Positions 15,175-41,839 of a stretch of 64,000 nucleotides of DNA are shown piece by piece. Positions within the stretch are counted from its first letter, which is position 1; each line of letters begins with the position of its first letter. The stretch covers positions 62,001 to 126,000 of the forward strand of contig NZ_LECU01000004.1 of the NCBI RefSeq assembly GCF_001027745.1, in the 5' to 3' direction. The notes under the pieces are model-generated. The model worked only from the letters and a program-made list of their open reading frames with translations, had not been told where the DNA came from and searched no databases. The DNA is from Pedobacter sp. BMA. GTDB taxonomy: Bacteria; Bacteroidota; Bacteroidia; Sphingobacteriales; Sphingobacteriaceae. The position numbers and the translations under genes were made by a program.

Positions 15175-15852
15175 ATGAACGTACTAATTGTTGAAGATGA
15201 AAAAAGCCTGGCCCTGGAAATGGATGAATTTCTAAGCAAGGAGGGTTTTATTGTAGAGCATGCCTGGAAAAAAACTTCGGCTGAGGAGAAAATCTTCGTC
15301 AATAATTATGACTTCATTTTACTGGATTTAGGCTTGCCGGATGGCGATGGCTTTGAAGTTTTAAAACAGTTGAAGGCATTGAAAGACCGGGACGATGCGG
15401 TAATCATTCTAACTGCCCGCAGCGCGGTAGACGATCGGATTAAGGGCCTGGATGAGGGAGCCGATGACTATCTGCCTAAGCCCTTTTCACTCAACGAGCT
15501 GCTGGCCCGTATGCATGCCATCACCAGAAGAAAACACAAACTGGAAAAGAACGAAGTCAATGTACACGATTTCCTGCTGAATATTCAGAACAGAACGGTT
15601 TCTTTCGGAGAAGAAAGGTTAAACCTGACTAAAAAGGAATTCGAAATCTTCAATTACCTCGTACTAAATAAAAACCGCGTAGTATCCCGTATGAGTTTAA
15701 CTGAGCATGTTTGGGGCGATATTTTAGAAGTTAATTCTGACTCAAACTTTGTGGATGTGCACGTAAAAAACCTCCGTAAGAAACTTGCTGCCATTACCCC
15801 TATCGACTGGTTTGAAACGGTGAGAAGTATTGGATACCGGATCAACTGCTAA
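15175..15852 (+). CDS. OmpR/PhoB-family response regulator
   Basis: The 225 residues comprise a receiver domain (about 1-118) with acidic pocket VEDEK and the phospho-acceptor Asp51 in FILLDLGLPDGDGF. Lys101 lies in DYLPKPFSLNELLAR. A C-terminal winged helix (about 130-225) follows, with EIFNYLVLNKNRVVSR, NFVDVHVKNLRKKL and TVRSIGYRI. It is a DNA-binding regulator, paired with the histidine kinase gene 55 nt downstream. Confidence 0.95.
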   Translation: MNVLIVEDEKSLALEMDEFLSKEGFIVEHAWKKTSAEEKIFVNNYDFILLDLGLPDGDGFEVLKQLKALKDRDDAVIILTARSAVDDRIKGLDEGADDYLPKPFSLNELLARMHAITRRKHKLEKNEVNVHDFLLNIQNRTVSFGEERLNLTKKEFEIFNYLVLNKNRVVSRMSLTEHVWGDILEVNSDSNFVDVHVKNLRKKLAAITPIDWFETVRSIGYRINC

Positions 15853-17290: not shown

Positions 17291-19174
17291 TTGAAAAATC
17301 TATTCCTTATATGCTTCTACCTCCTTCTTTGTACCCTTTGCGGCTATGCGCAAAAGCCGGTAGAAATTAGGGATACCGTTCCACAGCATATATTCACTTT
17401 TAAGGAAATAGAGGTTTTCGAAGATACGCAAAGTAAGTTTTCTTTTGAAGAAGTTAAAAGCCAGCGGTTTAACGGCAACTTTAAGGCGAGTTTAACGAGT
17501 ACACCACAAACAAAAGAACTAAATAAAACGTACTGGGTTCGCATTAGGGTCAAAACCAATACCCAGGCCAGGAAACCTTTTGTGCTGGAATTTTTTGATC
17601 AGACAATCGATCACATTACGGCATATGTTCCGCAACCAAATGGCGACTATAAGGTGGAAAATCTGGGTGATGCCAATAGCTTTGAAAAGCGGCTTATTCA
17701 CCATAAAAATTTTGAGATCCCACTACAAAACGAAGGTAATCAGGAAAGGACATATTATTTCAGGATCAGTTCTTCACAAATAGCAGACATCATCATCGTA
17801 CTCAGAACCACTGAATGGTTTATTTCCTATGCCCTTGATGAATATTTCTATTTCGGCATTTTTTATGGAATGATCCTCGTTTTTAGTTTCTACAACCTCA
17901 TCATGTATATCGCAATCAAGCAGAAGCAATACCTGTTTTATGTGCTGTATAACTTAAGTGTGGGTTTCTTTGAAATGAGTTCGGATGGTATAGCTTACCA
18001 GTATTTGTGGCCCCATGCCCCGGCCTGGAACCAGCTGGCATATGCGTTTGCATTATGTGCAACCAGTATCTTTGCTTTACTATTTACCCGCGAATTGCTT
18101 TATGTGAAGGCGAAAGCACCAAAAGTTAATCAACTGATTATCGCGGTGATTACACTGCGGCTTGTCTTTTTTGTGTACTGCTACCTGTTCGATCAGACTT
18201 TATTCAGCTATAAATTTATTGAGGCCATCCCGCTTTCTGTGGCTTTTTTTACCGGCATTTACATCTTTAAAAACGGCTACCAGCCGGCGCGCTTTTTTGT
18301 GCTGGGCTATAGTTTTCTGTTCCTGGGCTTTACCCTGAAATTTTTAATCATGCTGGGAATTGGCTGGCTGAATTTTGGTGCCATCAGCTACTACAGTTTA
18401 AGCTTCTGTTTTGTGCTGGAGATGATCTTTTTATCCTTTGCCATTGGAGATAAAGTCCGGATCCTGAAGTTGAAAAAAGATAAGGCCCAGCAAAAGATGA
18501 TCAGGCAAATGGCTGTAAATGTCAAACTGAAAGATTCGTTAAATCAGGAACTGGAAACCAAGGTGGAGGAGCGTACGCGCGAAGTTTATCATAAGTCGCT
18601 GATTATCGAGAGTAAAAATCAGGCCCTTGAAGAAGCCAATGCACTGCTGCAACAACAGGCCGAGGAAATTTCAAGAATGAATGTGTTGCTCGAACACGAT
18701 AATGAAGAATTGCAGACCAGTGTAGAGAAGGTGACGCGAGATCGGGTCATGAATACGGATGTTGACTTTGAGGAGTTCAGCAGAATTTACCCGGACAAAG
18801 AATCGTGCTATGAATTTCTTTCACAATTAAAATGGAGTAAAGGGTATCATTGCAGAAAATGCAATAATGATCACTTTTTTAACGGTCACATTCTTTATAG
18901 CCGCCGCTGCAGCAAATGCAGTTATGAGGAATCGGTTACAACGTATACAATCTTTCACAACACCCGTATTCCCATCAATAAAGCCTTCTACATGATCTTC
19001 CTGATCTACTCATCTAAAGGAAAGATCTCCTCCCATAAGCTTTCTGAATTGCTATCAATCCGGCAAAGCACTTGCTGGACCTTTGGTTCGCGCATTAAAA
19101 AAGTGATGGAAGACCGGAAGAAAACTCTCAGCAAAACAGGTAAAAACGGTTGGAGTCAGCTGGTAATCGAGTAA
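17291..19174 (+). CDS. 7TMR-DISM receptor fused to an IS1595-type transposase zinc ribbon and HTH
   Basis: The start is a TTG at 17291: it begins directly at a signal peptide (MKNLFLICFYLLLC, cleavage near AQ20-21) and follows a promoter. The 627 residues form an extracytoplasmic 7TMR-DISMED2-like beta domain (about 25-175), seven membrane helices (about 185-390) with landmarks FGIFYGMILVFSFYN and YLFYVLYNLS, and a coiled coil (about 390-485). In place of a kinase or cyclase, the C-terminus holds a zinc ribbon, CRKC (521-524) and CSKC (540-543), and a helix-turn-helix-like segment to the end. That unit matches the N-terminal DNA-binding part of IS1595-family transposases. The DDE catalytic domain is absent. 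It is probably a membrane-bound regulator of the SusC/SusD genes that follow. Confidence 0.85.
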   Translation: MKNLFLICFYLLLCTLCGYAQKPVEIRDTVPQHIFTFKEIEVFEDTQSKFSFEEVKSQRFNGNFKASLTSTPQTKELNKTYWVRIRVKTNTQARKPFVLEFFDQTIDHITAYVPQPNGDYKVENLGDANSFEKRLIHHKNFEIPLQNEGNQERTYYFRISSSQIADIIIVLRTTEWFISYALDEYFYFGIFYGMILVFSFYNLIMYIAIKQKQYLFYVLYNLSVGFFEMSSDGIAYQYLWPHAPAWNQLAYAFALCATSIFALLFTRELLYVKAKAPKVNQLIIAVITLRLVFFVYCYLFDQTLFSYKFIEAIPLSVAFFTGIYIFKNGYQPARFFVLGYSFLFLGFTLKFLIMLGIGWLNFGAISYYSLSFCFVLEMIFLSFAIGDKVRILKLKKDKAQQKMIRQMAVNVKLKDSLNQELETKVEERTREVYHKSLIIESKNQALEEANALLQQQAEEISRMNVLLEHDNEELQTSVEKVTRDRVMNTDVDFEEFSRIYPDKESCYEFLSQLKWSKGYHCRKCNNDHFFNGHILYSRRCSKCSYEESVTTYTIFHNTRIPINKAFYMIFLIYSSKGKISSHKLSELLSIRQSTCWTFGSRIKKVMEDRKKTLSKTGKNGWSQLVIE

Positions 19175-19243
19175 ACCACTACCATTTAAGGTCACATTCT
19201 TGTTGTATTTAACGATTTGTTTAAGAAAAACAAACAGGTACCT

Positions 19244-19346
19244 AAGCGTATCAAACCACTGCCGCAGCACAGCTTCTTTACCCTGATTAAAGCCTGATAA
19301 TCAAGCTTAAAAGGGCTTCATCAATCGCGGTATTAAAGCGTATCAA
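19244..19346. repeat. Pair of 11-bp direct repeats AAGCGTATCAA
   Basis: Copies at 19244-19254 and 19336-19346 lie 92 bp apart in the gap between the 7TM receptor gene and susC, upstream of the susC promoter. They could be a regulator binding site; no direct evidence. Confidence 0.4.
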
Positions 19347-19403
19347 TATCTTTATAAAAAACTATATATCAGTTAGTTACGTAATTTTATTTCGAATGAA
19401 AAC

Positions 19404-19435
19404 TTGTTTTTAACACTAAATCAATGCTAACTTTA
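19404..19435 (+). promoter_or_regulatory. Promoter of the first SusC/SusD locus
   Basis: TTG (19404-19406) and TAACTTTA (19428-19435) are 21 nt apart; the last base differs from TAnnTTTG. The susC ATG is 29 nt downstream. Confidence 0.55.
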
Positions 19436-19464
19436 CACCCTATAATATTAACAGAGCAAAAATT

Positions 19465-22377
19465 ATGAGAAAAAAGTTTACATTGCTTATGGTTTGTATT
19501 TTATGCCTCACCTCCTGGGGATGGGCACAAAACATCACCATAAAGGGTTTGGTAAAAGATAACCAGGGTTTACCCTTACCCGGCGTTTCTGTGAAAGTGA
19601 AAGGAACCAATCAGGGTACCTCTACAGGCGACAACGGTTCATACAGCATTAGTGCACCTCAAAATGCGGTATTGGAATTCGCCTTTATTGGCTTTAAAAC
19701 AATTGAACAAACCATTGGCGGCCGCACATCAATCAACGTTACACTAAGCGACGATAACCAGCAGTTAAACGAAGTGGTTGTAATTGGTTATGGTACTACA
19801 GTAAAGAAAGACCTGACCACCGCTGTTGTTTCCTTGTCATCTAAAGATATTGAGAACCAGCCGGTGACCAATCCACTTCAGGCGATTCAGGGTAAGGCAG
19901 CCGGGGTACAGATTACTTCGCAGTCAGGTAAACCAGGTTCAGGAGTATCGGTTACTATTCGTGGTAATACTTCGATTAATGCCTCTAACAGTCCCCTATA
20001 CGTAATTGACGGGGTTACTTCACGTGATGCAAGTTTCCTAAATCCTACAGATATCGAAAACCTGGTGATCTTAAAAGATGCATCTGCAGCAGCTATTTAC
20101 GGTTCCAGTGGCGCAAACGGGGTAATCTTAATTACCACGAAGAAAGGTTCATCTGATAAAATCCGTGCAACCTTTAATGCATTTACAGGTTTCTCTAACC
20201 TATGGCAAAAACAGGATGTACTGAACAAAGACCAGTATATCTCCTTAATGAAAGAACTTGGTTACGACACCAATGGTTTAGGAAACGAAAATACCGACTG
20301 GCAGGATTTAACTTTTGGAACAGGCGTACAAAACAGCTATCAGGCATCTATTTCTGGCGGTATTAAAGGCGGACAATATTCCCTGTCTACCGGATATCAG
20401 CAAGACAAAGGTGTGGTTGCGCCAGCTAAACTGGATAAATATACCTTGCATTTCAACGGTTCTCAAAACATCACCAAATGGTTAAAACTGACCGGAAATG
20501 CCGCATTAACGCAAAGCAATTCTGTTGATGTAAGTGATAATAATAACGTGGCAAGAGGGGGAACAATTTTATCTGCCCTTACTACGCCACCAACCATCGG
20601 TGTTTATGCAGCTAACGGAACTTATGCCTTTAACCCTTATAAAGGTGGTTCAGAAAATCCTGTTGCCAATGCTTTCGCAGCAAAAAACAGCAACAGAAAC
20701 TTCCGTTTCCTCGGTGCTTTTGCAGCTGAAATTAAGTTTACGCAGGATTTCTCTTTTAAATCGAGCATCAGTACCAATAACAATGACAACCGTTATTCTT
20801 ATTTCTTAGACCCCTACTCCACCGATTACGGCAGAACACAGAAGGGGATCAGAAATGCAAACTTTAGTACAGACCATGTTTGGTTGAATGAGAACATTTT
20901 TAACTACACCAAAAACTGGGGTAAAAATGCTTTCACTGCAACAGGTGGTATGACGCTGCAGGAATCTAAATACTACTATTTAGGCTATAACGAACAAAAC
21001 TTTATCGGAACAAACGGACAGCTTTTAGACAGGGGAACTTCTATTCCTGTTCAGCTTCCAACAGCTTCGCAATGGAGCAAACGTTCATACTTAGCCCGTT
21101 TAACTTATGCTTACGACAGCAAATATTTATTCAGCACCAATTTCAGGGCAGATGGTTCATCCCGTTTCGGACCTGAAAACAGGTATGGTTATTTCCCTTC
21201 GGCATCTGTTGGATGGAGAATTTCGGGCGAGAACTTTTTAAAAGAGGTTAAATCCATTAATGATTTAAAACTAAGAGCGAGCTGGGGTAAGGTAGGTAAT
21301 GATGAAGGCATTGGAGATTATTCGTACTTAGAATTGTATACACCAACAACTCAGGGCTCATATGTATTTTCTCAACTCCCTAATCCAGGGTTGAAATGGG
21401 AAGAAACAACACAAACCAATATCGGTTTGGATTTGACCATGTTTAACAGCCGTGTAATTTTTACTGCCGATGCTTACCTGAAAAAAACGAAAGATTTACT
21501 GATCAACCAGCCATTGCCTAACTCCATTGGTTTCGGAAGCATTGCTTCTAACGTTGGGGATATGGAAAATAAAGGTTTGGAGTTTGTACTAACCACCAAG
21601 AACTTTGTAAAAGACAGATTCACCTGGACTACCGACCTGAACTTCTCGCTCAACCGCAATAAGGTAACCAGTTTAGGTGATAAGGTAAGCTCCATCACTT
21701 TCGGTGGAATCTACGAGCGTGATGCCGCCATCAGAGTGGTAACAGGCCGCCCGTTGGGAAGCTTTTATGGCTATGTTTCAAACGGTGTTGATCCACAAAC
21801 CGGAAACATTGTCTATCAGGATTTAAACGGCGACAAACAGATCAATGCGGACGACAGAACTTTTATTGGTTCGGCACAACCTAAATTCACTTACGGCGTT
21901 AACAACACATTTACATTCGGAAACTTTGGCCTGAACTTTTTGTTCCAGGGTGTACAGGGTAATCAAATGTTCAATGCTTCCAGAATGGAGCTTGAAGGCA
22001 TGAATGACTCGAAAAACCAATCGGCAGTGGTACTGAACAGATGGACTACACCGGGACAGATTACGGATGTTCCAAAAGCCATTAAAGATAACACCAATAA
22101 TACGCTTACATCAAGCCGTTTTGTTGAAGACGGATCGTACCTGCGTTTGAAAACGACTACTTTTTCTTACAACTTCGGTGCGGCTACTTTAGGAAAACTT
22201 AAAATGAGCAAAGTGATGCTATATGCTTCTGCCTATAACCTGTTGACTTTTACGAAGTATAGTGGCTTTGATCCGGAAGTAAATGTAAACTCTGCTAACG
22301 GACCGGCAATGGGTATTGATTATGGAACTTATCCACAGTCGAGAACTTTCTTATTTGGTGTTAATGTAGGCTTTTAA
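19465..22377 (+). CDS. SusC/RagA-family TonB-dependent transporter
   Basis: The 970-residue protein has a signal peptide (about 1-22), a carboxypeptidase-regulatory-like domain (about 24-100, ITIKGLVKDNQGLPLPGVSV), then the SusC signature VVVIGYGTTVKKDLTTAV and a plug domain with ILKDASAAAIYGSSGANGVI. The rest is a 22-strand barrel ending in an aromatic residue (GVNVGF). It takes up oligosaccharides across the outer membrane with energy from TonB. The SusD partner starts 10 nt later. Substrate is suggested by the GH30 enzyme in the same locus. Confidence 0.95.
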   Translation: MRKKFTLLMVCILCLTSWGWAQNITIKGLVKDNQGLPLPGVSVKVKGTNQGTSTGDNGSYSISAPQNAVLEFAFIGFKTIEQTIGGRTSINVTLSDDNQQLNEVVVIGYGTTVKKDLTTAVVSLSSKDIENQPVTNPLQAIQGKAAGVQITSQSGKPGSGVSVTIRGNTSINASNSPLYVIDGVTSRDASFLNPTDIENLVILKDASAAAIYGSSGANGVILITTKKGSSDKIRATFNAFTGFSNLWQKQDVLNKDQYISLMKELGYDTNGLGNENTDWQDLTFGTGVQNSYQASISGGIKGGQYSLSTGYQQDKGVVAPAKLDKYTLHFNGSQNITKWLKLTGNAALTQSNSVDVSDNNNVARGGTILSALTTPPTIGVYAANGTYAFNPYKGGSENPVANAFAAKNSNRNFRFLGAFAAEIKFTQDFSFKSSISTNNNDNRYSYFLDPYSTDYGRTQKGIRNANFSTDHVWLNENIFNYTKNWGKNAFTATGGMTLQESKYYYLGYNEQNFIGTNGQLLDRGTSIPVQLPTASQWSKRSYLARLTYAYDSKYLFSTNFRADGSSRFGPENRYGYFPSASVGWRISGENFLKEVKSINDLKLRASWGKVGNDEGIGDYSYLELYTPTTQGSYVFSQLPNPGLKWEETTQTNIGLDLTMFNSRVIFTADAYLKKTKDLLINQPLPNSIGFGSIASNVGDMENKGLEFVLTTKNFVKDRFTWTTDLNFSLNRNKVTSLGDKVSSITFGGIYERDAAIRVVTGRPLGSFYGYVSNGVDPQTGNIVYQDLNGDKQINADDRTFIGSAQPKFTYGVNNTFTFGNFGLNFLFQGVQGNQMFNASRMELEGMNDSKNQSAVVLNRWTTPGQITDVPKAIKDNTNNTLTSSRFVEDGSYLRLKTTTFSYNFGAATLGKLKMSKVMLYASAYNLLTFTKYSGFDPEVNVNSANGPAMGIDYGTYPQSRTFLFGVNVGF

Positions 22378-22387
22378 TTTAAACAAA

Positions 22388-23803
22388 ATGAAACTTAAGA
22401 TATATTCATTAATCGCAGCAGGCACCATTGCAATGGCATTAAGCAGCTGCAAAAAAGACTTTTTAGAACAAAGTCCGCTTACTCAGGTTGGGCCTGACGT
22501 GGCTTTTGCTGATGCTGCGGCAGCAGAAAAACTTATACAGGGTGCTTACGACGGCATGTACAATGATTTCCATATCTGGGATTATATGACCAACGGTGAT
22601 GTACGATCAGACAATGCTTACGCAGGCGGAGATAATCCTGCGAATATTCAGCTTGACCTGTTCACGGTAAATTCAACCAATGGGAATGTAGGCAGAGACT
22701 GGAATGCGCTTTACAGCGATATCAAAAACTGTAACTTAATCCTGACCAATGTCCCAAATATACAGGATCCGAAGCTGGATGCCGGCGACAGAAGAAAGCA
22801 AATTCTTGCTGAAGCCAGTATCCTTCGCGCCTATATGTATTTTAACCTGGTGAGAACCTGGGGATCTGTACCGCTGGTGGTAAAAGTACCTACTACTGAT
22901 GCTGAGTTTTATCCGGCTAGGGCAACTGTCGACGCCATCTACGCCCAGATTGTTGCCGATCTGGAATACGGTGCTGCTAATGCCCGTACAACGGCTCCAA
23001 ACAAAGGCATCATGACGAAAGGTGTCGCTAACGCTTTACTGGCAAAAGTATATGCATCGAAGGCTACTCCCGACTGGACTAAGGTAAGCACTTACGCAGA
23101 TGCCGTAATTGGTGGCGGATATTCATTGGTTTCGAATTACGATTTTCTTTGGGATTCCAATCATAAAAACAATACTGAGGCCATTTGGGAAATGCAATAT
23201 GATGGTTACGGTGGTCTACATGGTAACTGGATGCCAAGTGTGTTGGTGGGAACAGGCTGGAAACGTTTCAATACGCCGACCAATAGCTTATCTAAAGCAT
23301 TTGATGATGCTGGTGATGCAGTACGTAAGGCCTCGAGCATTAAGTTTAATAATGTAGTTTCTGAAGGCTGGAGCGATTCCTACTGGTCTAAAACGAGCTA
23401 TCCTTATATCAATAAGTATCGCGCCGATGATAAATCTGACAACTATATCTTAAGATTAGCAGACCTGATTTTATTAAAAGCGGAAGCGCTGAATGAATTA
23501 AGTGCATCAGGATGGTCGGCGGCGGCACCACTGGTTAACCAGATCCGTGCCCGCGTGGGCCTTTCTGCCATAACAGCAACCGACCAGGCCTCTATGCGTT
23601 TAGCGATAGAAAATGAACGCCGTTTAGAACTGGCTTTTGAAGGACACCGCTGGTTCGATTTGCTGAGAACAAACCGTGTAATTCCGGTGATGAATGCTCA
23701 GGTAGATGGAGCAGGTGCAAATCTGAACTATAACCTTACTGCATCAAAATTGTATTTCCCCATCCCTCAGGATGAGCTGGATAAAAATCCAAACGTAAAA
23801 TAA
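22388..23803 (+). CDS. SusD/RagB-family glycan-binding lipoprotein
   Basis: The 471-residue protein begins with a lipoprotein signal ending at Cys21 (MALSSCKK). It has the SusD pattern: FLEQSPLTQV near the start, then TPR-like helices (ILAEASILRAYMYFNLVRTWG) and the conserved C-terminal region RLADLILLKAEALNEL, ERRLELAFEGHRWFDLLR and YFPIPQDELDKNP. It caps the SusC channel on the cell surface and binds oligosaccharides. It is translated directly after SusC (10 nt gap). A terminator hairpin separates it from the enzyme gene. Confidence 0.95.
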   Translation: MKLKIYSLIAAGTIAMALSSCKKDFLEQSPLTQVGPDVAFADAAAAEKLIQGAYDGMYNDFHIWDYMTNGDVRSDNAYAGGDNPANIQLDLFTVNSTNGNVGRDWNALYSDIKNCNLILTNVPNIQDPKLDAGDRRKQILAEASILRAYMYFNLVRTWGSVPLVVKVPTTDAEFYPARATVDAIYAQIVADLEYGAANARTTAPNKGIMTKGVANALLAKVYASKATPDWTKVSTYADAVIGGGYSLVSNYDFLWDSNHKNNTEAIWEMQYDGYGGLHGNWMPSVLVGTGWKRFNTPTNSLSKAFDDAGDAVRKASSIKFNNVVSEGWSDSYWSKTSYPYINKYRADDKSDNYILRLADLILLKAEALNELSASGWSAAAPLVNQIRARVGLSAITATDQASMRLAIENERRLELAFEGHRWFDLLRTNRVIPVMNAQVDGAGANLNYNLTASKLYFPIPQDELDKNPNVK

Positions 23804-23871: not shown

Positions 23872-25365
23872 ATGAGGAACAATATGCTAAAATTCAGGGC
23901 CGGAACTGTACTGATAAAACCGCTTTACACTTTAGGTACAGCATTATGCTTACTGATTGTGGCCTGCGCCTGCAGCAAAGGTCCGGATACCTATAACGAA
24001 ACGACCCCAAATGCAGCAGGCACTGGAGCGCCTTTAAAAACAGAAGTTGAATTCTGGCTAACCAAAGGCGACAAATCACAGCTCCTTAGGAAACAAAGCG
24101 TGGCGTTGAACTTCTCAAACGCTAAAAATGCCAATCCAACGATTGAAGTGGATCCTAAAACCACATTTCAATCTATCGATGGTTTCGGTTATACCCTAAC
24201 CGGAGGAAGCGCTACCCTGATCAACAAACTTTCAGAAACCGAAAAAGACAAGTTATTAAATGAGTTATTCGGTTCATCGGAAAATGCCATCGGGGTAAAC
24301 TACATCAGGATCAGTATTGGGGGTTCAGACTTAAGTGCGACACCTTTTACCTATAATGACCTGGCAAAAGGTGAGACAGATGAGCAGCTGGCTCAATTTT
24401 CAATTGAAAAAGAACAGGCCGACCTTATTCCGGTTCTGAAAAGAATTGTGGCGATTAATCCGTCGATCAAGATATTGGGTTCTCCGTGGACTGCGCCTAC
24501 CTGGATGAAAACAAACGGGAGCTATATAGGCGGGAGCCTGAAACCGGAGTATTATACGGTTTACGCTCAATACCTGGCGAAGTACATCCAGTCTATGAAA
24601 AGCCAGGGCATCACTATTGATGCGATTACGCCGCAAAATGAGCCGTTACACCCTGGGAACAACCCAAGTATGTATATGGCGGCACTAGATCAGGCCAGGT
24701 TTATTAAAACTGCCCTTGGACCGGTATTTAAAAGTAATGGAATCAGCACCAAGATCATTATCTATGACCACAATGCAGATAAGCCAGAATATCCGATTAC
24801 CGTATTGAATGATCCTGATGCAAAGCAATATATTGACGGTTCGGCATTTCATTTGTACGCCGGCCCGATTTCAGCTCTTACGCAGGTTCATAATGCGCAT
24901 CCCGACAAGCATGTGTATTTCACTGAACAATGGGTTGGGGGGCCAAGCAATTTTGCAGAAGACCTGAAATGGCATGTATCTACACTCATTATTGGTGCCA
25001 CCAGAAACTGGAGCAGAAATGTGCTGGAATGGAACCTGGCAGCCGACCAGAACTACAACCCACATACGGATCAGGGAGGTTGTACTTCGTGCCTGGGTGC
25101 ATTGACTATTGCACCGGCCGTAAGCAGGAATGTAGCTTATTATGTGATTGCACATGCCTCTAAATTTGTTAAAACAGGCTCGGTACGCATCGCATCAAAC
25201 GTGGTTAGCAACCTACAGAATGTAGCTTTTAAAACACCCGAAGGTAAAACCGTACTGATTGTTTGCAACAACAATAATGTCAAAACTCCATTTAACATCA
25301 AATATAAAGGGAAAACCATCAGTACTCGCTTAGACAAAGGTGCTGTAGGTACTTTTATCTGGTAA
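23872..25365 (+). CDS. GH30-family beta-glycosidase lipoprotein
   Basis: The 497-residue protein has an extended N-terminus with a lipobox (LIVAC, Cys32). The catalytic (beta/alpha)8 domain shows GH30 marks: FQSIDGFGYTLTGGSA, SPWTAPTWMKTNG, the acid/base Glu257 in TPQNEPLHPG and the nucleophile Glu352 in VYFTEQWVGG. A C-terminal beta domain follows. GH30 includes glucosylceramidases, beta-1,6-glucanases, xylanases and others. The SPWTAPTWMK and FTEQ patterns fit the glucosylceramidase/beta-1,6-glucanase subfamilies better than the xylanases, but subfamily is not certain. With SusC/SusD it suggests use of a beta-linked glucan. Surface exposure is probable. Confidence 0.9.
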   Translation: MRNNMLKFRAGTVLIKPLYTLGTALCLLIVACACSKGPDTYNETTPNAAGTGAPLKTEVEFWLTKGDKSQLLRKQSVALNFSNAKNANPTIEVDPKTTFQSIDGFGYTLTGGSATLINKLSETEKDKLLNELFGSSENAIGVNYIRISIGGSDLSATPFTYNDLAKGETDEQLAQFSIEKEQADLIPVLKRIVAINPSIKILGSPWTAPTWMKTNGSYIGGSLKPEYYTVYAQYLAKYIQSMKSQGITIDAITPQNEPLHPGNNPSMYMAALDQARFIKTALGPVFKSNGISTKIIIYDHNADKPEYPITVLNDPDAKQYIDGSAFHLYAGPISALTQVHNAHPDKHVYFTEQWVGGPSNFAEDLKWHVSTLIIGATRNWSRNVLEWNLAADQNYNPHTDQGGCTSCLGALTIAPAVSRNVAYYVIAHASKFVKTGSVRIASNVVSNLQNVAFKTPEGKTVLIVCNNNNVKTPFNIKYKGKTISTRLDKGAVGTFIW

Positions 25366-38896: not shown

Positions 38897-38953
38897 GGCC
38901 AATTGTGCAATTTTTGCTTATTTTGCGGACTAATCGCCTGGCCGAATCAATTT

Positions 38954-41839
38954 ATGCTAAAATATCTGTACTATCCCCTTTTTCTTTTAGCTGCTCTTTC
39001 TTTCCGTTTACATGCATCTGATATAAAAAGTATAGGTGTTCCGTACATAGAAAATTACCCTAAATCTGTTTACGCATCGGGGAATCAAAATTGGAGCATC
39101 GCCAAAGATCAGAATGGTGTAATGTATTTTGGAAACGCGGAGGGATTGCTTACGTTCGACGGGCGTTACTGGCAGAAATACAAAATGCCTAACCGCCAAA
39201 TCGTTCGCGCTGTTGCAACCGATAACAAAGGAAAAATATATACCGGCAGTTTCGGGGAATTTGGTTACTGGAGCCTCAAAAATAATCGTTTAAGTTATAG
39301 CTCGTTAACGAAACTGCTTCCGAAGGGAATTACGGTTACCGACGAAATCTGGAAAATTTACACCGATCAGGACCGCGTAATATTCCAGTCATTCTCCAGG
39401 ATATTTATCTATAAAAATAACAGAATCGAAGTGGTAAAATCGCCTTCTTCATTCCTGTTTCTGCATAAGGTAAACAAAAGATATCTGGTAGAGGTGCTGG
39501 AAAAGGGTTTATTTGAACTCATTGGCAATAAGCTCAGGCCAATACCGGGAAGTGAGATACTGGGCAAAGAGGGTATCCTGTCCATTTTACCTTATAAAAA
39601 TGGTGGTTTTATTATAGGAACAAGCAAGAACGGTCTTTTCACCTACGATGGGAAAACCTTTAGTCCGCTGAATACCCTTGCCAACAGCTATCTGAAAACC
39701 TACCAGCTGAACAACGGGGCTGTACTGATGGGCAAATACTTTGCCTATGGAACCATATTAAACGGCCTGATTATTATTGATGAAAATGGACGCGTTGTGC
39801 AGCGGATCAACAAATCGAGCGGTTTACAAAACAATACCGTATTAAGTTTATTTGCTGATGACGAGCAAAACCTGTGGACGGGCCTGGATAATGGAATCGA
39901 CCGGATTGAGTTAAATTCCCCTTTGTATTTCTACTTCGATAAAACAGGGCAGTTTGGGACAGTATACTCAAGTATTATTTTCAATGGTAAGATTTACCTT
40001 GGCACCAACCAGGGACTTTTTTACAGTAACTGGAATCCGGAAAGTGAGCTAAACTCCTTTAACTTTCGTCTGATTCCGAATTCCCAGGGACAGGTGTGGG
40101 AGCTTACCGTAATTGATAATGAGTTAATTTGCGGCCACAATAGCGGAACATTCAAAGTGCTGGGCGACGAGATTCAATGGCTGTCCCGAACCGGTGGTGG
40201 GTGGACCATTAAAAAACTAAATTCAAATCCGGGCTATCTGATACAGGGAACCTATGTAGGGCTAACCCTCTTCAGTAAAACGGCCGGATCAGCGTTGAAG
40301 TTTGAAAGGAAGATCGGCGGCTTTGATGCACCATCGAGATTCATTGAGCAGGATGCTAAAGGTGATGTTTGGGTAAGCCATGCCTATAAAGGTTTGTATA
40401 AACTTACGTTGAGTAGCGATTACTCTAAAGTAACGGCTATGCGATACTTTGATGAGAAAAACGGATTACCTGGCAACTATAATATCAACATCTTCAACCT
40501 CGAAAACAGGATCGTTTTTTCTTCTGACGCTGGCTTTTACACTTATGATGAACTCAGCAACAAGTTCACAAAATACGATGTCCTGAATAAAAAACTGGGG
40601 TCGTTCGAAACGTCGAATAAAATTATCAATGCCGGCAATAAAAAATACTGGTTTATCAATCACGGTAAAACAGCCCTGGTTGATTTTAGTGAACCTGGTA
40701 AGCTGGAAATCGATTCTAATCAGTTTAGTTTGCTGGATGGGCGAATGGTGCAGTATTATGAGAACATCAGTAAAATCAGCAATGCCATTTATCTGATCAG
40801 TGTTGACGATGGCTTTGTGATTTATAACACTACCCAGAACCAGAGCAATGTAAACCGGAAACTGCCTAAGGTACTGATCAGAAGACTGGACGATATTACG
40901 GATAAATACCATACCATTAGTGAAACTGGCAATAACGAGCGTGATATTGAGATTCCATACAGCAGGAATAATATCCGCATTTCATTTTCGCTACCCTATT
41001 ACCGCCAGGCAAAGGTAAAATATCAATTCTTCCTGGAAGGCTATTCAAAAGACTGGTCTGACTGGAACTTTGCTTCCCAAAAAGATTTCACCAATTTAGG
41101 CAGTGGCACCTATGTATTCAAAGTAAGGGCAAAGATCAACGACAATTCGGTTAGCGACATAACTAACTTTGAGTTTGAGGTATTGAGACCATGGTATTTG
41201 AATAACTGGGCCATTCTGATATATATTATTCTTCTGGCATTCATATTAAGGGCTGGCAAACAGGTTTATGAAAAGAAGCTAACAAGAGACAGTAAAAAAA
41301 TAAGTGACAGGTTACAGGCTGAAAAGGAGGAAGTTTTACGTCAGGAAGCGGAGATTAACGAAAAACAGATCCACAAGCTTCAAACGGAGAAGCTTCAAAC
41401 GGAGCTTGCCTCGAAAAACAGGGAACTGGCAAACTCTGCCATGACTTTGGTATATAAAAATGAGTTGCTTCAAAAGCTAAGTGACGAAATCATGAAGCTC
41501 AAAGATGAGAACGGGAAAAAACTTTCGGACGACCAGACCAGAAAAATTCAGAAAGTGATTAACGATGGTATGAATGATGAGCGGGACTGGCACTTATTTG
41601 AAAACAGTTTCAATGAGGCCCATGAAAGTTTCTTCAAAAAGCTAAAAGCACAACACCCGGACCTTGTTCCGAACGACCTTAAGTTATGTGCTTACCTGAG
41701 GATGAACATGAGCAGTAAAGAGATGTCATCGCTGCTTAATATTAGTGTCCGGGGCGTTGAAATACGCCGGTACAGATTAAGGAAAAAGCTTGAAGTGGCG
41801 CATGATAAAAACTTAACTGAGTTTTTGATGGAGTTGTAA
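38954..41839 (+). CDS. Transmembrane beta-propeller regulator with Y_Y_Y and LuxR-type HTH
   Basis: The start is the ATG at 38954 (MLKYLYYPLFLLAALSFRLHAS), a signal peptide; the frame extends upstream only in the trhO 3' region. The 961 residues comprise a two-component-regulator-type propeller (about 25-660, repeats such as NQNWSIAKDQNGVMYFGNAEG), a Y_Y_Y domain (about 680-745, YQFFLEGYSKDWSDWNF), one membrane helix (about 757-777), a cytoplasmic coiled coil (785-880) and a C-terminal GerE/LuxR helix-turn-helix (LRMNMSSKEMSSLLNISV). There is no histidine kinase or receiver. It is a one-component, membrane-spanning sensor-regulator, in the manner of SusR-like proteins. It lies directly before the SusC/SusD genes of the second locus and probably controls them. 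Confidence 0.88.
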   Translation: MLKYLYYPLFLLAALSFRLHASDIKSIGVPYIENYPKSVYASGNQNWSIAKDQNGVMYFGNAEGLLTFDGRYWQKYKMPNRQIVRAVATDNKGKIYTGSFGEFGYWSLKNNRLSYSSLTKLLPKGITVTDEIWKIYTDQDRVIFQSFSRIFIYKNNRIEVVKSPSSFLFLHKVNKRYLVEVLEKGLFELIGNKLRPIPGSEILGKEGILSILPYKNGGFIIGTSKNGLFTYDGKTFSPLNTLANSYLKTYQLNNGAVLMGKYFAYGTILNGLIIIDENGRVVQRINKSSGLQNNTVLSLFADDEQNLWTGLDNGIDRIELNSPLYFYFDKTGQFGTVYSSIIFNGKIYLGTNQGLFYSNWNPESELNSFNFRLIPNSQGQVWELTVIDNELICGHNSGTFKVLGDEIQWLSRTGGGWTIKKLNSNPGYLIQGTYVGLTLFSKTAGSALKFERKIGGFDAPSRFIEQDAKGDVWVSHAYKGLYKLTLSSDYSKVTAMRYFDEKNGLPGNYNINIFNLENRIVFSSDAGFYTYDELSNKFTKYDVLNKKLGSFETSNKIINAGNKKYWFINHGKTALVDFSEPGKLEIDSNQFSLLDGRMVQYYENISKISNAIYLISVDDGFVIYNTTQNQSNVNRKLPKVLIRRLDDITDKYHTISETGNNERDIEIPYSRNNIRISFSLPYYRQAKVKYQFFLEGYSKDWSDWNFASQKDFTNLGSGTYVFKVRAKINDNSVSDITNFEFEVLRPWYLNNWAILIYIILLAFILRAGKQVYEKKLTRDSKKISDRLQAEKEEVLRQEAEINEKQIHKLQTEKLQTELASKNRELANSAMTLVYKNELLQKLSDEIMKLKDENGKKLSDDQTRKIQKVINDGMNDERDWHLFENSFNEAHESFFKKLKAQHPDLVPNDLKLCAYLRMNMSSKEMSSLLNISVRGVEIRRYRLRKKLEVAHDKNLTEFLMEL

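Follow-up and report, generated by a model that had tools for sequence, protein, structure and literature searches.

SusR-like regulators of Bacteroides are described, in the part of PMC3878776 that concerns them, as single membrane proteins with a periplasmic sensor and a cytoplasmic C-terminal DNA-binding part, often encoded beside susC and susD, and in their predicted operators two direct repeats stand 67 or 77 bp from centre to centre (PMC3878776). Hybrid two-component systems (HTCS) are likewise membrane regulators linked to glycan loci in Bacteroidota, and for their operators an average of 21 bp between sites is given in the same part (PMC3878776). As to the sensor, 7TMR-DISM is one of the architectures found with a C-terminal ChiS-family DNA-binding domain in Proteobacteria, and DNA-binding output on 7TMR-DISM already has a precedent there; the section on this architecture mentions neither Sus-type loci nor operators (PMC8092284).

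The receptor analysed here is encoded in a 64-kb window, this being the whole stretch of DNA under analysis (64,000 nucleotides), of Pedobacter sp. BMA, and its features are listed in Table 1. An earlier note on this DNA had taken the protein for a receptor with a transposase-type output domain; this first reading is supported by the sequence comparisons given below, and the original observation is confirmed far beyond chance.

Table 1. Features of the receptor gene, the candidate operator and the predicted target genes (positions in the window)
Feature	Position	Strand	Basis
Whole receptor gene	17291..19174	+	ORF, 627 aa, TTG start; hydrophobic N-terminus
7TMR-DISMED2 periplasmic sensor domain, residues 39-171	17405..17803	+	Pfam, E 6.7e-30
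7TMR-DISM_7TM membrane domain, residues 184-388	17840..18454	+	Pfam, E 2.8e-42
Long cytoplasmic helix/coiled coil, about residues 389-485	18455..18745	+	Predicted helix 363-485, partly low confidence
IS1595-type zinc ribbon	18794..18925	+	PF12760; cysteines 521, 524, 540, 543
HTH-containing three-helix part, residues 562-613	18974..19129	+	N-terminal part of NCBIfam transpos_IS1595; helices in structure models
Candidate operator box A, GGTAnnnAAGCGTATCA	19237..19253	+	Direct repeat; 9-base core mean identity 0.994, 20 rows
Near-palindrome CTGATAATCA between boxes	19294..19303	.	Mean identity 0.965 over 20 rows
Candidate operator box B, 92 bp downstream of box A	19329..19345	+	Direct repeat; core mean identity 0.978
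Probable susC promoter, CTTG ... TAACTTTAC	19403..19436	+	TAACTTTAC identity 1.0, invariant in 20 rows
susC, predicted target	19465..22377	+	ORF; SusC by sequence reading, gene order same in relatives
susD, predicted target	22388..23803	+	PF14322 match; gene order in relatives
GH30 glycoside hydrolase, predicted target	23872..25365	+	PF02055, E 1.6e-45

Architecture and family of the receptor

The claim of a 7TMR-DISM receptor agrees well with the Pfam scan, in which the 7TMR-DISM_7TM domain and a DISMED extracellular domain were both present. The N-terminus, judged by eye, is likely a signal peptide. A structure model of the full-length protein, of mediocre quality (mean pLDDT 74.2, pTM 0.52), consists of a beta-rich ectodomain, membrane helices and a single helix at residues 363-485 of lower confidence. 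The genome also encodes a paralog with 47% identity over residues 7-627, in which all three Pfam domains recur and PF12760 scores above the cut-off (28.1 bits). The closer orthologs (83-87% identity) belong to Pedobacter, the nearest named relatives.

For the C-terminal tail, a match to the zinc ribbon and HTH of IS1595-type transposases had been claimed, together with the absence of the DDE domain, and three comparisons bear this out. Zn_ribbon_IS1595 (PF12760) matches residues 502-545 with E 2.7e-4 and 21.3 bits in the single-protein Pfam scan, below the curated cut-off of 25.4, and the same stretch reaches 25.9 bits, barely above it, in the genome search. The NCBIfam IS1595 transposase model matches residues 557-614 (E 3.6e-7, 30.3 bits against a full-length cut-off of 75), the match ending 13 residues before the end of the ORF at residue 627; it covers only positions 1-61 of the 215 in the model, no DDE catalytic domain being found in the receptor with this model, and the partial score below the cut-off is what would be expected if that part is absent. 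Receptor residues 494-605 align at 27% identity (E 1.3e-10) with an IS1595-type transposase that the genome also encodes and that scores 50.1 bits with PF12760.

The model of the tail alone (mean pLDDT 83.6) places strands of the ribbon at 41-43 and 50-52, and helices follow at 74-86, 93-100 and 104-120 (tail numbering). Foldseek with this model returned no PDB match at E <=0.001. The realigned structural matches cover tail residues about 60-139, barely including the ribbon, and contain many HTH regulators among unrelated proteins, with Z values of 5.0 at most (an Lrp-like protein 5.0, TrpR 4.9, the IstA transposase 4.6); a Z of 5 lies within the range that the tool calls unspecific.

The four ribbon cysteines are invariant in an alignment of 16 sequences. 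Since protein or RNA can also be the ligand of a zinc ribbon, the tail could be devoid of specific DNA binding, its zinc ribbon and HTH being a protein-interaction module that remained after a transposase gene had been fused to the receptor gene by accident. We hold this to be quite improbable, as the C-x2-C...C-x2-C pairs are kept within the last 150 residues in all 89 family members examined, and the HTH is conserved better than DISMED2 in five of six comparisons (61% against 30% for the paralog and 72% against 51% for L025; the exception is L029, with 39% for the HTH, 38% for the sensor and 42% for the 7TM part). The correlation of receptor groups with the presence of boxes and the recurrence of the tail on a second sensor type, both described below, also argue against a mere interaction module.

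A tree of receptor tails and IS1595 transposases separates both groups, with two label changes needed; because such a tree proves neither the direction nor a single origin, the domestication of the tail from a transposase is to be taken as an inference. In the genome G631, ten IS1595-like matches were found among those listed, and in the eight copies inspected (L189-L196) the VDE catalytic motif looks altered by eye while the zinc ribbon and HTH are intact and close to the receptor tail; these copies are possibly a separate domestication.

With the receptor as query and one genome per species, 26 loci were collected, P. terrae and P. rhizosphaerae being among the species represented. A tail profile built from eight sequences matched 135 of the 301 genomes of the family to which Pedobacter sp. 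BMA belongs, a count that includes ordinary transposases; among the matches listed (E 2e-55 or better), the open frames were all of 622-698 aa except one of 1101. Over 395 genomes of the class, receptor-sized frames were found also in four other families (f12, f15, f36 and f49), most of the weaker listed matches being transposase-sized (about 300 aa). Rows with receptor-sized frames were the source of 60 regions, chosen manually to represent various genera, copies and families; an ORF in them was counted as a receptor on the basis of tail profile, family profile and a length of >450 aa. Other or shorter sensors on this tail could have escaped such a selection.

The tail is present in 64 ORFs of these 60 regions, and in 63 of them the DISM part was recognized as well (worst E 2.7e-59). 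The protein L105:13109-16381 (1090 aa) is composed of Reg_prop propeller repeats, Y_Y_Y, a coiled-coil-like stretch, the zinc ribbon and the HTH, with no DISM, and the output module has therefore been combined with two sensors that are unrelated to each other. Sensors of the Reg_prop/Y_Y_Y type are known from HTCS. The L105 region also holds a DISM-type copy, and in L106 and L107 two receptor copies stand in tandem, side by side.

Linkage to glycan-utilization genes

The SusC/SusD/GH30 locus that the earlier note had placed directly after the receptor was found as described, and the order receptor, SusC, SusD, GH30 is kept in 23 of the 26 loci (with one gene between SusD and GH30 in L008, L014 and L028). 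Another SusC/SusD pair follows the receptor in L029 and L030, at 39% identity, and L031 is cut at the receptor. The proposed link of homologs to glycan loci was checked over the 60 regions and holds: the next gene on the same strand is susC for 30 of the 64 receptors against 9 of the 442 other genes of >150 aa, a control that is somewhat biased in that a susC following a receptor cannot follow another gene. The genome of Pedobacter sp. BMA carries 66 SusD (PF14322) matches in 5.04 Mb, and chance adjacency should therefore be rare.

Within three genes, susC or GH30 was found for 46 of the 64 receptors, one more being cut by the contig end. Neighbours were annotated with Pfam at 12 of the loci of the 18 receptors having neither gene in this range, and in eight of the 12 a glycoside hydrolase or lyase adjoins the receptor or lies near it: GH81 in L093, GH5 in L107, L136 and L149, an alginate lyase in L109, GH5 plus GH3 in L110, GH20 plus a chondroitinase-B-like protein in L115, and GH2 plus GH5 in L128. 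The single gene scanned in L144 is a transporter, and among the few neighbour genes scanned in L105, L146 and L151 Pfam gave no glycoside hydrolase or lyase. Adjacency to susC/susD and to degradative enzymes, by which PUL regulators are recognized, is thus what was observed for the receptor.

Elsewhere in the window, a Reg_prop/Y_Y_Y protein (38903-41839) with a LuxR-type HTH match below the cut-off and no kinase match in Pfam is encoded before another SusC/SusD pair; it is likely another one-component glycan regulator.

Paired direct repeats upstream of the predicted target genes

The intergenic region between the receptor and susC (19175-19464), which had been suggested as the target region, holds a conserved pair of direct repeats, GGTAnnnAAGCGTATCr, as candidate operator. 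The footprint was obtained from an alignment of 20 orthologous intergenic regions, the window included, with identities measured against the window; the background identity over the 20 rows was 0.551 for all DNA between the boxes and 0.49 upstream, to be compared with the values in Table 1. The exact pattern GGTANNNAAGCGTATC occurs genome-wide only at box A and box B. With one mismatch, seven matches were found in the genome against four for the reversed control, and with <=3 mismatches the single-box pattern was not enriched in the 64-kb window (15 against 12.6 in shuffles).

The stretch CTTG ... TAACTTTAC is probably the susC promoter, of the Bacteroidota -33/-7 type; a sigma-70 scan found nothing on the + strand. 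As the repeats sit between the receptor and susC, they might act in the mRNA leader, as an attenuator or riboswitch, instead of as DNA sites, but they are direct repeats, no inverted repeat of >=10 bases was found in the receptor-susC region, and they lie upstream of the promoter-like block, so that we give this explanation hardly any weight.

Box pairs were then sought before other targets. Out of 71 target-upstream regions collected, 53 were scanned after near-identical Pedobacter orthologs had been reduced to one, the scan requiring two copies of AAGCGTATC 74-96 bp apart with <=3 mismatches of 18. The paired core was identified in 36 of the 53 targets, against 0.2% of 2,120 dinucleotide shuffles, with spacings of 76-94 bp (most commonly 86 in eight targets, 79 in six, and 89 and 92 in four each), and a G seven bases before the core, outside the scan pattern, is present in 99% of the 72 sites. 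Scanning of the full regions gave 41 pair calls, some of them overlapping, in 34 of the 60 regions, whereas three shuffled sets averaged 0.67 calls, and 40 of the 41 calls lie <=700 bp before a gene start. The sole strict pair of L127 precedes a helicase gene. The boxes track the target gene, not the receptor; genes intervene between receptor and boxes in L092, L141 and L132, and the pair of L149 lies ahead of a GH5 gene in divergent orientation.

The remaining 17 targets had no pair at <=3 mismatches. When grouped by receptor, pairs were found in 36 of 45 targets with the common recognition segment and in 0 of 8 others (Fisher 2.7e-5, a value that ignores relatedness); nine of the 17 pairless targets (L024 and L025, both with four mismatches, and L096, L097, L111, L120, L127, L130 and L131) have the common segment, and the most divergent receptors (L029, L030, L096-L103) gave no AAGCGTATC pair within the three-mismatch limit. 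The site of the own paralog (L104), with a spacing of 78 and three mismatches, was found by relaxed scans only. A search for any direct repeat of 17 bases detected a spacing of 66 in 4 of the 53 targets, 79 in 4 and 86 in 7, the spacing-66 repeats differing in sequence from the boxes.

Among the 301 genomes of the family, exact pairs occur in 49, at 51 places, the reversed pattern being found in two; judged by eye, some twenty of these places appear to represent a single orthologous locus of Pedobacter and are not independent. A total of 39 lie <=5 kb downstream of a listed receptor and on its strand. Of the 12 left over, four are found within about 4 kb of a receptor, either upstream of it or in divergent orientation; the remaining eight are distant, on a different contig, or in a genome that has no tail match. 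The genomes G019 and G214 have exact pairs and no tail match. The exact pairs at G100:C1:253411 and G254:C19:8087 are distant from the listed receptors of these receptor-bearing genomes and are possible distant members of the regulon.

A response regulator/histidine kinase pair is encoded directly upstream of the receptor, and is kept with it in the Pedobacter loci, except L024, as far as the contigs reach. The boxes might accordingly belong to another regulator, such as the OmpR-type response regulator (15175-15852), with the receptor acting through protein contacts or not at all. We regard this as unlikely for several reasons. L024-L027 have no orthologous pair directly upstream (in L025 distant relatives of the two proteins are encoded only further upstream and on the other strand), yet the receptor and SusC/SusD/GH30 are kept, together with weaker box pairs (90-92 bp, 3-4 mismatches). 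Box pairs adjoin receptors in many other contexts, and the long box spacing is unlike an OmpR-type site.

Some additional features were noticed by eye. Words such as CTGTATATCAG that look like the near-palindrome CTGATAATCA stand within other matched pairs, and between the boxes at G261:C35:134677-134771, G285:C28:470892-470986 and similar GH30-type loci a hairpin is followed by a T run. An origin of the boxes from IS1595 terminal inverted repeats was also considered and found no support: strong terminal repeats (17 of 18) were suggested by a script in two of 17 transposase stretches, and none resembled the boxes by eye.

Proposed mode of action and comparison with known regulators

With the domain architecture, its conservation, the linkage to glycan genes and the presence and placement of the paired boxes all obtained by computation, we consider it likely that the receptor is a membrane-anchored one-component regulator of the glycan locus, the tail binding the two boxes and most likely activating susC. 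In the proposed mechanism, DISMED2 would sense in the periplasm a glycan product that the neighbouring SusC/SusD/GH30 system supplies, and the signal would be passed on through the 7TM domain and the long coiled coil. The cytoplasmic zinc ribbon, presumably loaded with zinc, and the HTH would then bind, probably as a dimer, to the two AAGCGTATC boxes that stand in tandem, at a distance of 92 bp, ahead of the susC promoter. This binding would most likely activate susC transcription; activation is preferred to repression because of the analogy with SusR.

The combination of DISM and an IS1595-type domain, its glycan link and its operator were described nowhere in the literature searched, which was covered mostly at title and abstract level, with most subscription papers lying outside. 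We know of no precedent for an IS1595-type output domain on a membrane-anchored PUL regulator. If the proposal is true, it adds a widespread and apparently undescribed class of regulator for bacterial glycan-utilization loci, allows regulons to be assigned from sequence by the predicted operator, and offers a clear bacterial example of a membrane receptor whose output is a transposase DNA-binding domain.

The receptor has an N-terminal zinc ribbon and HTH in common with the IS1595 transposases, from which it differs in that it lacks the DDE domain, is fused to a membrane sensor and is kept beside glycan genes. From the ChiS-family 7TMR-DISM proteins it differs in both the DNA-binding domain and the phylum. 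It is not an HTCS, because no histidine kinase, receiver or AraC domain was found in it by Pfam, and the L105 protein has the Reg_prop/Y_Y_Y type of sensor, also with no histidine kinase, receiver or AraC domain.

For comparison with SusR, a candidate of 531 aa (L209) with DUF6377 (E 2e-89) and one hydrophobic segment was taken, which was assigned as SusR by synteny and size and not by comparison with a named sequence; its gene is oriented divergently to a cluster that comprises a 618-aa gene, GH97, SusC and SusD, and in the other 11 GH97 regions examined no SusR candidate was seen. That SusR might share the DNA-binding domain of the tail was rejected, the zinc-ribbon/HTH profile scoring 4.3 bits (E 0.41) on L209, and DUF6377 had no match in the receptor (Pfam, E up to 1). 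The receptor is not a SusR, because the syntenic SusR candidate is a DUF6377 protein with no significant match to the tail profile. The two have in common the layout of the membrane protein, a frequent place beside susC/susD and an operator of long-spaced direct repeats, predicted here also (92 bp at 19237/19329, and 76-94 bp in 36 of the 53 targets), whereas the sensor and the DNA-binding domain both differ, which raises the question of why such widely spaced direct repeats serve two membrane-tethered regulators that are unrelated to each other.

On balance we favour, with less confidence than the regulation of this locus itself, the view that these proteins constitute a further type of PUL regulator beside SusR and HTCS, in which a transposase-derived zinc-ribbon/HTH, fused to no fewer than two unrelated sensors (7TM-DISM and beta-propeller/Y_Y_Y), would act as a dimer tethered to the membrane and read pairs of direct repeats spaced by about 80-90 bp, a wide spacing at which SusR would have arrived independently.
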